A stretch of DNA of 64,000 nucleotides from an uncultured Planctomycetaceae bacterium (GTDB lineage: Bacteria; Planctomycetota; Planctomycetia; Planctomycetales; Planctomycetaceae). Location of the stretch: contig CAIOKE010000251.1 of the NCBI GenBank assembly GCA_903858815.1, forward strand, positions 1-64,000, read 5' to 3'. Shown here in pieces: positions 9,057-29,815 of this stretch. The first letter of the stretch is position 1. Every line of letters begins with the position of its first letter. Below the pieces are notes generated by a model. That model did not search any database. It saw only the letters and a list, made by a program, of their open reading frames with translations, and had not been told where the DNA came from. The position numbers and the translations under genes were made by a program.

Positions 9057-9809
9057 ATGTCCGATCCCAACGTCACGCCAGAACCACCGGTCACCGAGAT
9101 GGAACTGGTGGGAACCGAAGATCAATGCTCCTACCTGCCCGACCAGACCAGTCGCATGATCTGGCGACTGGCCAGACGCCTGACAGAAAGTCGCTACGAA
9201 CAACTGCTGGAACGTGGCTGGCGTCGCTTCGGTCGTGTGCTGTTTCGCCCTGCCTGCCCGTCCTGCACAGCCTGTCAGGGCCTGCGAGTCTCTGTGAATG
9301 ATTTTCAACCATCGCGCAGCCAGCGTCGCTGCCGCGATGAACTTGATCAGCACCAGATCCAGATCGTCATTCAGCAACCCACACTCACTGCCGAACACAT
9401 CCAGCTCTACAACAGTTATCACCACGACATGCACCATCGTCGCGGCTGGCCGTTTCGTCAGATCACTCGCGACGATTACTTCGAATCTTTCATCGATGGA
9501 AACTTTTCATTCGCCCGCGAAGTCCAGTACCGCCTTGACGGCCGCCTGATCGGCCTTGGACTGGTCGACATCACCAGCACCTGCCTCAGCAGTATCTACT
9601 TCTTTCATGACCCGGAGTGGCGACAATACGGACTTGGGACATGGTCTGTGCTGCAGGAACTTCAACAGGCAAAAAACATGAGCCTGCAGTGGATCTACAT
9701 GGGCTACTTCATCCATGACTGCCAGTCCATGAAATACAAAAGCTCCTTCCGCCCCCATCAACTGCTCAGATCCTTCCCCCCCGATCACGTCAGCCCGAAC
9801 TGGCACTGA
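9057..9809 (+). CDS. bpt: Aspartate/glutamate leucyltransferase (bacterial Ate1-like)
   Basis: Bpt transfers leucine from Leu-tRNA to proteins with N-terminal Asp or Glu, marking them for ClpS/ClpAP under the N-end rule. The 250-residue product has the N-terminal Ate domain with the Cys-rich segment CPSCTACQGLRVSV, and the C-terminal GNAT-like domain with YRLDGRLIGLGLVD, SSIYFFHDPEW and the YMGYFIHDCQSMKYK stretch typical of the family. The start ATG has a weak GGGA site upstream. It is transcribed away from trpD and is followed by the repeat-rich intergenic region. No clpS is seen in the window. Confidence 0.93.
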   Translation: MSDPNVTPEPPVTEMELVGTEDQCSYLPDQTSRMIWRLARRLTESRYEQLLERGWRRFGRVLFRPACPSCTACQGLRVSVNDFQPSRSQRRCRDELDQHQIQIVIQQPTLTAEHIQLYNSYHHDMHHRRGWPFRQITRDDYFESFIDGNFSFAREVQYRLDGRLIGLGLVDITSTCLSSIYFFHDPEWRQYGLGTWSVLQELQQAKNMSLQWIYMGYFIHDCQSMKYKSSFRPHQLLRSFPPDHVSPNWH

Positions 9810-9865: not shown

Positions 9866-10026
9866 ATCATGGGAGGGCGAAGCTCCTGCTGAGCCGAACA
9901 TTCGCTACGCCCAGGCACCCGGCAGTCCCTCAACTCAACACCCGATGGCTCCCCCGGGACCTCCGAGCACCAGCTCGGAGACACAACACCAACGACCCAC
10001 GGCTCGGCAGGAGCCTCGCCCTCCCA
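9866..10026. mobile_element. MITE-like palindromic element, copy 1
   Basis: The unit is bounded by inverted repeats of about 25 bp: GGGAGGGCGAAGCTCC at 9871-9886 continuing to 9895, and the near-complementary arm at 10001-10026. Its interior shows a GACCTCCGAGCACCAG motif and matches copy 2 at many positions. No transposase is encoded, so movement would need one acting in trans. Confidence 0.7.
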
Positions 10027-10170
10027 AGCTCGTCATTACCCACGAATTCAGATCTTTGTGAACAGGGCGACCAGAAACCGCCCCCTCAGACCTGAATCGC
10101 AACAGCAGGTAAGCTGAACCACCGAAACAAGACCCCCGAGGCTGAAACAAGGCCCCAACGGCCCCCCCCC

Positions 10171-10420
10171 CAGGCCTGAAGGGCCGATCGCAGTCGAGCC
10201 AGGTGCGTCAGCACCTGGTCACGACACCACAAAGAAGCCCCCAAGGCCTGACGGGCCGGTTTCAGCAGAGCCCGGTGCATAAGCACCGGGAACCCCAGGC
10301 ATGAGGAACCCACACTCGCTTTGAAATCGGCCCTTCAGGCCTTAAACACCAATTTGGGGGGTGTCCCAGACCCAGGGCTGCGCCCTGGGCTACCAGAAAC
10401 CGACCCTTCGGGCCTGAATC
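10171..10420. repeat. REP-like hairpin array
   Basis: Three perfect 8-bp hairpins lie in series: CCAGGTGC-GTCA-GCACCTGG (10199-10218), CCCGGTGC-ATAA-GCACCGGG (10271-10290) and CCCAGGGC-TGC-GCCCTGGG (10371-10389). They alternate with four copies, in both orientations, of a GGCCTGAAGGGCC-like motif (10172-10184, 10244-10256, 10329-10341, 10403-10415). The compensating base changes between the first two stems indicate that pairing, not sequence, is kept. Confidence 0.7.
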
Positions 10421-10512
10421 GCAAACATTCCCTCGGCACAAACCAAACACACACCGCAACGGTCTCCTGGCCCGACGGGCTTCGCACGTACTGCCTCGCC
10501 CTCCCGAGGAGC

Positions 10513-10695
10513 ATCGTGGGAGGGCGAAGCTCCTGCTGAGCCCACCATTCGCCACGCCCAAGCACCCGGCGGGCATTCAACGCAACCCCCGACGGCTCGC
10601 CAAAGCCCAGCCTGGGACCTCCCCTGGGACCTCCGAGACCAGTTCGGAGACGATACTCCAACGGCCTGCGGCTCGGCAGGAGCCTCGCCCTCCCG
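10513..10695. mobile_element. MITE-like palindromic element, copy 2
   Basis: The same terminal inverted repeats as copy 1 occur at 10518-10542 and 10670-10695, with an internal segment alignable along its length but about 20 bp longer, including a short duplicated GGGACCTCC. The order of motifs (ACGCCCAAGCACCCGG, GACGGCTC, GACCTCCGAGACCAG, CAACGGCCTGCGG) matches copy 1, supporting a single mobile or amplified unit. Confidence 0.7.
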
Positions 10696-10738
10696 AGAAG
10701 CGGCGACATGCAATAACGACGGATACCAAACGCGCACG

Positions 10739-10890
10739 TCGACCTCAAGACACCAGTCCGGGGACGGCCTCACATCAACATCCAACGGCCTGCGCTGACG
10801 GTTCGCTTAGGACTGCCTCGGACCTCTCAGCAGCAGTTCGGGCGACAAGAATCAAACGACCTGCGGTTCGGCGGGAGCCTCGCCCTCCCG
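10739..10890. repeat. Two partial copies of the MITE-like right end
   Basis: Bases 10739-10795 and 10830-10890 both repeat the right-hand module of the elements: GACCTC, then an ACCAGTCCGG- or GCAGTTCGGG-like core, then CAACGGCCTGCG. Only the second keeps the terminal arm (10865-10890). They look like truncated or nested insertions, ending 34 bases from the stop codon of the last cytochrome oxidase gene. Confidence 0.55.
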
Positions 10891-10924: not shown

Positions 10925-11311
10925 TCAGTGTGACTCTTCGCTGTGCTCTGCTGCCGCGGCATGCTCACGCTCATATTCGGCGACTTCAGGTGCCCAGGTG
11001 GTCACCTGCGGAGCAACGTTAATGTAATACGACCGACCGATGTCAGGAAACAACGCGATCGGCAGACCGATCGCGAGGATGGTCGTCGGGGCAAGGAGCA
11101 CGAACTTCCAGTTGCCCTCGAACTTCAGGTGCATGAAGTACATCATCACGCTCATGGCCTTGGCGCAGGCGACTGCCAGCACCAGCACAATCGTAACACC
11201 CTTCGACATGGACATCACGTCAAACAGAACAGACAGCCCGGTGCAGCCGCACAGCACAAAGAAGACGGCCAGATAGTTGACATGATGAGTCTGATGTTCG
11301 TCGTGTGACAT
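10925..11311 (-). CDS. Cytochrome c oxidase subunit IV-like membrane protein
   Basis: This 128-residue protein has a His-rich N-terminus (MSHDEHQTHH) and three predicted membrane segments, with the conserved KAMSVMMYFMHLKFE stretch seen in bacterial Cox4/CtaF subunits. It is the last gene of the respiratory cluster and should be a small structural subunit of the oxidase. The frame extends upstream to 11359, but the ATG at 11311 is chosen because the extra residues do not resemble the family and the internal start begins the characteristic His-rich leader. It begins 51 bases after the coxC stop. Confidence 0.85.
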   Translation of the reverse strand: MSHDEHQTHHVNYLAVFFVLCGCTGLSVLFDVMSMSKGVTIVLVLAVACAKAMSVMMYFMHLKFEGNWKFVLLAPTTILAIGLPIALFPDIGRSYYINVAPQVTTWAPEVAEYEREHAAAAEHSEESH

Positions 11312-11362
11312 GGCGGGCCTGCAAGACCAGAAAAAAACAGGGAACGGAAACGCCTGCAAGGA

Positions 11363-28130: not shown

Positions 28131-29815
28131 GATTGACCTCCTGTCGACTCACTGTCGGCCGTCGGCACGACACGACGCCTCAGCGTCGCGCCGCCCGTCA
28201 GATTCAGCACCTCCCGAAAACCACTCTGCAGCAGGATTCGCTGGGCCGCATGCGCTCGCACACCAACCCCGCAACTGACCACCGTCGGTCGCGATGAATC
28301 CAGCTCACCCAGTCGCTCCCGCAGCTCGTCCAGCGGAATCGCTGTCACCTGAGCCCGCGTGGTCAACGGAGCCTTCGCAACCTCAGCCGCCGTCCGCACA
28401 TCCACAACCTGAAAACCGCTCAGATCGGCGTCCACATCCAGCATCGCTCCCCGACCGTCCAGTTCGTTGCACGCCACAAACGCCGCCTGATGAACAGGAT
28501 CCCGAGCTGAGCCGAATGGCGGTGCATAACACAAATCCAGTCCAGCCACATCACGGACTGTGCCACCGAACGCCAGCACAGTCGCAAGCACATCTATTCG
28601 CTTATCAGCCCCGTCCGCCCCCGTGGCCTGCGCACCCAGCAGACGTCCACTGGGATACTCATACACCAGCTTCAGGGTCAGCATTACAGCACCCGGGAAA
28701 TAGCCGGCGTGCTGCCCCGCAATGACGGTGGCACTGCGACAGTTAAAACCTGCACGCCGCGCCGCACGAACACTTAATCCTGTCAGCGCTGCGGTCTGAC
28801 CAAAGACCCGCACAATCGCTGTTCCCTGCACCGGACGAAACGCAGCACTGACGCCACACACCGCGTGCTCACCAGCCAGACGACCGGCGCGATTGGCCGG
28901 CCCGGCAAGCGCGACGCGCGCTGCACCTCCAGTGGGCCCATACGGATACTCCACCGCATCACCCACGGCGTAAATGTGCGGATCCGAAGTCTGCAGAAAT
29001 TCATTGATTCGAATGCCTCCGGTCGGACCTGTCTCCAGTCCGCACGCTGTTGCCAGACCCACGTTCGGGCGGACACCAATACCAAGGATCACCAGACTGG
29101 CCGAAAGCTGAGTTCCGTCTGAAAGTGACACACCGCTGACACAACCCGACTGCTCAGTCACGGACTTTAAAGCGCGTCCGAGGTGTAATCTGACCCCCTG
29201 CTGGATCAGTTCGTCACGAATCGCCACGGACATGTCCATGTCCAGCGGTGGCAGCACCTGCGACTGCAGCTCCACCAGATGCACCACAAACCCTTTCCTG
29301 ACAAGCTGTTCGGCCATTTCCAGACCGATGAATCCGGCCCCGGCAACGACCGCTGTACGAAGCCCGTCGGCAGTGGCTTCCACCGCGGCCCGAATCCGAT
29401 CCATGTCCACCAGATTTCGCAGACTGTACACACCCGTGGCTGTAATTCCCGGTAACGGAGGAATCACCGGAGCAGCCCCGGGCGACAGAATCAGGCGATC
29501 CCACGACAACTCATATTCGGAACCATCCGCCAGACGCCGCACCCGAATCGTTCTGGCTGCGCGGTCAATGGATACCGCCTCGGACTGTTCCCGCACGTCA
29601 ATCCGAAAACGTCTGCGTAACAGCTGAGCCGACGCAACAACCAGTTTCGATCGTTCAACAATCTCACCACCGATATGGTAAGGCATTCCGCAGTTGGCAA
29701 ACGAAACATCGCCATCCCGCTCCAGCAGAATGATCTCGGCCGCCTCACTGCAGCGTCTTGCTCGCGCCGCCGCCGACGCCCCGCCAGCAACCCCGCCGAC
29801 AATCACGACTCGCAT
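28127..29815 (-). CDS. CoA-disulfide reductase-like flavoprotein fused to a rhodanese domain
   Basis: The 562-residue product is a pyridine nucleotide-disulfide oxidoreductase with an FAD-binding VVIVGGVAGGASAAARARR start and the single active-site cysteine in SFANCGMPYHIGG, as in CoA-disulfide reductases. A second dinucleotide-binding GAGFIGLEMAEQL follows. The C-terminal 100 residues form a rhodanese domain with the catalytic loop CGVGVR, as in the CoADR-rhodanese fusions that reduce persulfides or CoA disulfide using NAD(P)H. The ATG at 29815 is chosen because GGAGG lies five bases upstream and the FAD motif begins at once; the frame is open to 29884. It overlaps nnrD by four bases. Confidence 0.88.
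   Translation of the reverse strand: MRVVIVGGVAGGASAAARARRCSEAAEIILLERDGDVSFANCGMPYHIGGEIVERSKLVVASAQLLRRRFRIDVREQSEAVSIDRAARTIRVRRLADGSEYELSWDRLILSPGAAPVIPPLPGITATGVYSLRNLVDMDRIRAAVEATADGLRTAVVAGAGFIGLEMAEQLVRKGFVVHLVELQSQVLPPLDMDMSVAIRDELIQQGVRLHLGRALKSVTEQSGCVSGVSLSDGTQLSASLVILGIGVRPNVGLATACGLETGPTGGIRINEFLQTSDPHIYAVGDAVEYPYGPTGGAARVALAGPANRAGRLAGEHAVCGVSAAFRPVQGTAIVRVFGQTAALTGLSVRAARRAGFNCRSATVIAGQHAGYFPGAVMLTLKLVYEYPSGRLLGAQATGADGADKRIDVLATVLAFGGTVRDVAGLDLCYAPPFGSARDPVHQAAFVACNELDGRGAMLDVDADLSGFQVVDVRTAAEVAKAPLTTRAQVTAIPLDELRERLGELDSSRPTVVSCGVGVRAHAAQRILLQSGFREVLNLTGGATLRRRVVPTADSESTGGQS

Follow-up and report, generated by a model that had tools for sequence, protein, structure and literature searches.

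The repeats lying between the ATE and COX4 genes of a planctomycete draft genome belong, with a probability that we put at roughly 0.6, to a REPIN/BIME-like family of Planctomycetota. They were studied in a window of 64,000 nt (G000:C251:1-64000), G000 being the 6.39-Mb draft genome, in 373 contigs, of an uncultured Planctomycetaceae bacterium. The basic doublet would consist of two inverted 25-nt REP-like arms with a short diverse spacer between them, and this reading is drawn from copy number, doublet architecture, covariation, extragenic bias, the fold of the doublet and the lack of the island in relatives. Counted against it are that no cognate RAYT was found, that the foot of the arm is not GTAG/GTGG, that direct neighbours outnumber inverted ones in G000, and that the spread of the doublet in one genus relative (G297) is explained by a MITE and not by a REPIN mechanism. 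Since a GTAG foot and a linked RAYT are both missing, we do not file the repeat as a proven REPIN/BIME member. REP and REPIN families usually keep to one species and depend on a RAYT close by. Here the arm is the same in many genera and no linked RAYT was found, so that one can test whether REP-like repeats are able to persist on another carrier.

The island spans 1.1 kb without a gene of its own, as the first-pass annotation had stated, and is bordered by two convergent genes, coding for arginine-tRNA-protein transferase (ATE; ATE_N/ATE_C; 9057..9809, + strand) and cytochrome c oxidase subunit IV (COX4; 10925..11359, - strand). It holds the two full units with inverted arms that had been described, at lengths of 157 and 178 bp instead of the 161 and 183 bp first given (about 4-5 bp shorter). 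Unit 1 (9870..10026, +) runs from a left arm (9871..9895, -; variant GGGAGGGCGAAGCTCCTGCTGAGCC, with a compensated A-T for G-C) through an interior with hairpin A (CCGAGCACCAGCTCGG; 9963..9978, +), a second palindrome found beside right arms in G000, to a right arm (10001..10025, +) that matches the consensus exactly. Unit 2 (10517..10694, +) has the same compensated variant as its left arm (10518..10542, -) and again the exact consensus as its right arm (10670..10694, +). Complementarity between the paired arms is 93% over 27 nt in unit 1 and 84% over 32 nt in unit 2. The two truncated right ends of the earlier description were likewise recovered, as a 13-nt outer fragment of a right arm (10493..10505, +) and a degenerate half unit (10820..10889, +) with an arm at its end (10865-10889, +). 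Altogether, five arms (25 nt, up to three mismatches) were found in the window, compared with none in 100 shuffles. Peptides of the GEAPAEP type are explained as translated repeat DNA, again as proposed: a mechanical open reading frame at 10390-10785 (-) contains REGEAPAEP and has no Pfam match, and GEAPAEP was not mentioned in the literature searched.

From the end of ATE to the COX4 match, the distance is 1182 bp in G000 versus 146-323 bp in nine genus relatives that share the gene order, and none of these nine has arms at the ATE-COX4 junction; in the stretch fetched from the other eight genus relatives there was no COX4 match. Since the junctions of the nine relatives are short and arm-free, the island is best taken as a gain in the G000 lineage or, less simply, as the outcome of nine losses.

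Further copies of the arm, for which a genome-wide search had been proposed, are plentiful. G000 holds 277+202 = 479 at up to three mismatches, where the reversed pattern gave 0+0, and 240+176 at up to two mismatches, where it again gave 0; the 157-bp unit had 122 BLAST matches in this genome, mostly to its right half. Arm hits are mostly extragenic, with 47 of 163 inside open reading frames of at least 150 aa compared with a fraction of 0.784 of random points. Many of the G000 copies are at contig ends, so that arms may account for some of the contig breaks in this draft genome. At up to two mismatches, the arm was detected in 11 of 294 genomes of the phylum (G000 counted among the 11) and in 14 of 18 genomes of the genus, with counts from 0 to 416 (335 in G303, 55 in G296, 47 in G297 and 34 in G300). 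The exact 25-mer occurs in at least 113 stretches of named genome contigs. Those listed are mostly labelled Planctomycetota, from several orders, and a few belong to MAGs labelled Armatimonadetes, Zixibacteria, Deltaproteobacteria or Acidobacteria, for which mis-binning is possible. The arm is also present on nine viral contigs, and the repeat had no match in the plasmid collection.

The 25-nt arm is GGCTCGGCAGGAGCCTCGCCCTCCC. Read as GGGAGGGCGAGGCTCCTGCCGAGCC, it can pair in the form GGC-GA-GGC-TCCT-GCC-GA-GCC, so that a short foot (GGGAG) lies on the 5' side of an imperfect hairpin with opposed GA/GA mismatches; the opposed residues may form sheared pairs. Co-change was counted by script over all 300 position pairs of 95 distinct arm variants with one to five mismatches. 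The largest excesses, in a count that takes the variants as they stand, kinship by shared descent included, were seen at positions 11-20 (14 observed, 3.8 expected), 12-19 (5 and 0.7) and 8-23 (7 and 1.8). All three are predicted stem pairs, with pairing restored in 22 of the 26 double changes, and both left arms in the window are a compensated variant, GAAGC...GCTGA. An alternative stem, GGCTC/GAGCC, was rejected: it showed one double change at one of its five pairs and none at the others. Folded as single-stranded DNA, the whole doublet has a predicted energy of -41.2 kcal/mol (z = -12.4). Two computed results count against the hairpin, namely the ordinary stability of a lone 25-nt arm (z about -0.2 to -0.5) and the different predicted fold of the covarying variant GAGCC...GGCGA. 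Compensatory changes are described as common in REPs in passages of PMC3116915. For the arm, "REP-like hairpin" is a more fitting description than "MITE end".

Among loci on named contigs other than those of G297, there were 73 pairs of neighbouring arms of the inverted <> type, 7 of the >< type and 15 direct ones; most <> spacers measured 8-32 nt. Six genome sets were compared, G297 excluded and two related MAGs pooled in one set; within a set, arms are 0.93-0.99 identical, compared with 0.30-0.59 for spacers and 0.24-0.54 for the 25-nt flanks; in G297, spacer and flank identity are both 0.79 because a whole MITE is copied there. REPINs are defined, in passages of PMC8049555, as two inverted REPs with a short and highly diverse spacer, and this arrangement was found in species other than that of G000. 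The repeat has the structure of a REPIN/BIME family in those species, and it works like such a family. A sample of 73 distinct arms from 60 loci in G000 itself gave 7 <>, 20 direct and 1 >< neighbours and 20 single arms, the direct arrays having a period of 36-38 or about 83-88 nt; G303 also has direct neighbours.

In its inverted doublets of conserved short hairpins around a diverse spacer of preferred length, its extragenic location, its hundreds of copies, its compensatory changes and its occurrence as singles and arrays, the repeat resembles the REPINs and BIMEs of Pseudomonas and E. coli. It differs from them in the GA/GA opposition of its stem, in a 25-mer that is identical over many genera, in that no RAYT with flanking copies was found, and in its foot, which the commonest arm variants have as GGGAG and not GTAG/GTGG (or CGTC). 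Hairpins associated with class 3 TnpA-Y1, which passages of PMC6006769 place in Planctomycetes and Acidobacteria, with about 600 copies in Solibacter, are similarly atypical, numerous and present in the same phyla, whereas the CnGA foot given there does not fit the arm. A motif look alone, made without a class 3 reference sequence, recognised no class 3 TnpA-Y1 protein. In the portions consulted of the planctomycete REP, RAYT and MITE literature, including PMC3733652 and PMC6006769, no account of the arm repeat was found.

REPINs are copied by RAYT proteins according to passages of PMC8049555 and PMC3116915. The doublets studied here would be copied, in single-stranded hairpin form, by an enzyme acting in trans, most probably one of the HUH/Y1 tyrosine transposase class; in G000, tandem duplication, decay to single arms and nesting with other repeats may then have produced the 1.1-kb ATE-COX4 island. 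The Y1 search used PF01797 (294 phylum genomes, 18 genus genomes and 8/10 other arm-bearing phylum genomes), and PF01797 matches were obtained in 184/294 phylum genomes, 12/18 genus genomes and 10/10 other arm-bearing phylum genomes. The best-scoring Y1 loci were examined for arms within 1.5 kb. A first set of 59 loci (30 from arm-bearing genomes) yielded one weak arm-like site (L073, four mismatches, at about 700 bp), and two further best-scoring sets yielded none in 30 and none in 14 loci. A REPtron, that is, a cognate RAYT flanked by its own REPs, was not found among the best-scoring Y1 loci, and with no convincing arm-flanked gene among the Y1 loci examined, Y1/RAYT was rejected as a linked mobiliser. 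According to passages of PMC8049555, REPINs are still present in E. coli strains that have no RAYT, so the missing linkage makes a RAYT mechanism less probable, not impossible.

The supposition that arm-rich genomes have no Y1 gene was also given up: G000 seemed Y1-free at E<=0.001, but a permissive search found divergent RAYT-like genes. Six matches to a divergent RAYT-like protein were obtained in G000, including the query itself (C363:102715-103860), which matches NCBIfam REP_Tyr_transpos with E=2.5e-9 and 37.2 bits, a score that does not reach the cut-off of 80. Searched against the 10 arm-bearing phylum genomes besides G000, this RAYT matched nothing below 1e-30. The RAYT-like genes at L371, L376 and L381 of G000 are about 95% alike and exist in at least three copies, two of which are cut by contig ends; such multicopy genes are unusual, as each REP type is said to have, in most cases, a single RAYT copy. 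In the named-contig set, the one RAYT near arms, from a Fuerstiella MAG (L247), has an inverted repeat of its own, AAAAGGGGTCAGGTCTC, at its borders and was therefore rejected as cognate to the arms. With that repeat, the gene (L247:700-1442) forms a TIRYT-like unit.

The first-pass annotation had called the units a MITE-like family, and we confirm a dispersed non-coding repeat with inverted arms, truncated copies and clustering. That they are ordinary MITEs, moved by a DDE transposase, with the arms terminal or subterminal and every copy cut and pasted with a target duplication, appears quite improbable. Elements of this kind do carry the doublet. An element in G297, mostly of 143 bp and with the terminal inverted repeat GGGTGYAGTCGCGGAT, has the doublet as its core; at the 16 of 20 loci with both ends (four were dropped, both ends not being found), 9-bp target duplications are exact in 6 and within one mismatch in 8, compared with none among 240 cross-paired controls. 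When 120 doublets were scanned for terminal inverted repeats plus target-site duplications, 15 scored at least 19, versus 3 of 360 with shuffled right flanks; L252 reached 9/9 for the duplication and 14/14 for the inverted repeat, and in JAPLNL a different MITE, with ends CACCGCTGTAAACAT, carries the doublet (copies L175, L207 and L219). However, outside the excluded G297 loci just 6 of 101 units score at least 19, and at least one of these six (L253) is also on a G297 contig. The MITE ends, where real, lie outside the arms and differ between genomes, and unrelated spacers separate identical arms, for example in an Isosphaera MAG. At the window units, neither terminal inverted repeats nor target-site duplications were seen, these units not being among the best 40 of the 120 scanned. 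Since the window units show no MITE ends and the arms in G000 are often single or in direct tandem, the arms are not ordinary MITE inverted repeats. In G297, swapped 9-bp flanks were also observed, the MITE at L318 having its left flank as in L305 and its right flank as in L319, the pattern expected of recombination between copies.

Two of the JAPLNL copies, L207 and L219, sit inside a further arm; joining their flanks minus the 9-bp duplication restores that arm, and the duplication corresponds to arm positions 5-13 in both. Arms can thus be both cargo and target of MITEs, and clustering by nested insertion occurs there. The suggested insertion of units into or near each other accordingly holds for JAPLNL and finds no support in the window itself. 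REPs are insertion targets of IS elements according to PMC1525189, a case that the two arm-inserted MITEs resemble, although here the inserted MITE itself bears an arm doublet. It is possible, if doubtful, that the doublet is a RAYT-independent module whose arm is identical across Planctomycetota, and perhaps other phyla, and that it spreads through capture as the core of unrelated MITEs that land in its arms, with mutual amplification of module and carrier. The arm could instead be a hairpin with a host function, a protein- or RNA-level site under selection that MITEs or recombination merely spread. Its conservation far above that of the spacers, the exact 25-mer in distant genera and the covariation of stem pairs are consistent with this, but we consider it unlikely in view of the patchy occurrence described above, even among close relatives. 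Rfam gave no match overlapping the units up to E=1, which argues against such a role and gives no sign of conserved RNA genes, the finding that would have refuted the first-pass annotation; in addition, no sigma-70-like promoter was found, and the two terminator-like sites are within the shuffle spread (mean 1.2, sd 1.4). A chance palindrome spread by local tandem amplification and gene conversion, with no transposition, would suit the direct arrays of G000 and the direct neighbours in G303, yet it is highly improbable for arms that are dispersed over many contigs with unrelated flanks and that occur in many genera and on viral contigs. We retain the REPIN/BIME-like reading.

Other hairpin repeats share these loci. 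The palindrome of hairpin A has 85 matches in 58 G000 loci (L003-L060, some of which overlap), and GAGCAGGAATGCTCGGGCTAC has 25 in the same 58 loci, with 0 for both reversed controls. Between the units of the island lie Acido-Lenti-1-like hairpins (RF01687, gathering score 37) at 10172-10218 (-, 36.9 bits), 10244-10290 (-, 30.7 bits) and 10371-10415 (+, 24.8 bits). They are a different repeat in the same island, and none was found when 20 other arm loci of G000 were looked at; three copies in one island suggest that Acido-Lenti-1, listed as an sRNA family, is able to act in the manner of a REP. Elsewhere in the window, the sequence at 29614-29796 (+) resembles the Vibrio RNA AS7 (RF02819), scoring 52.8 bits where the gathering score is 90.
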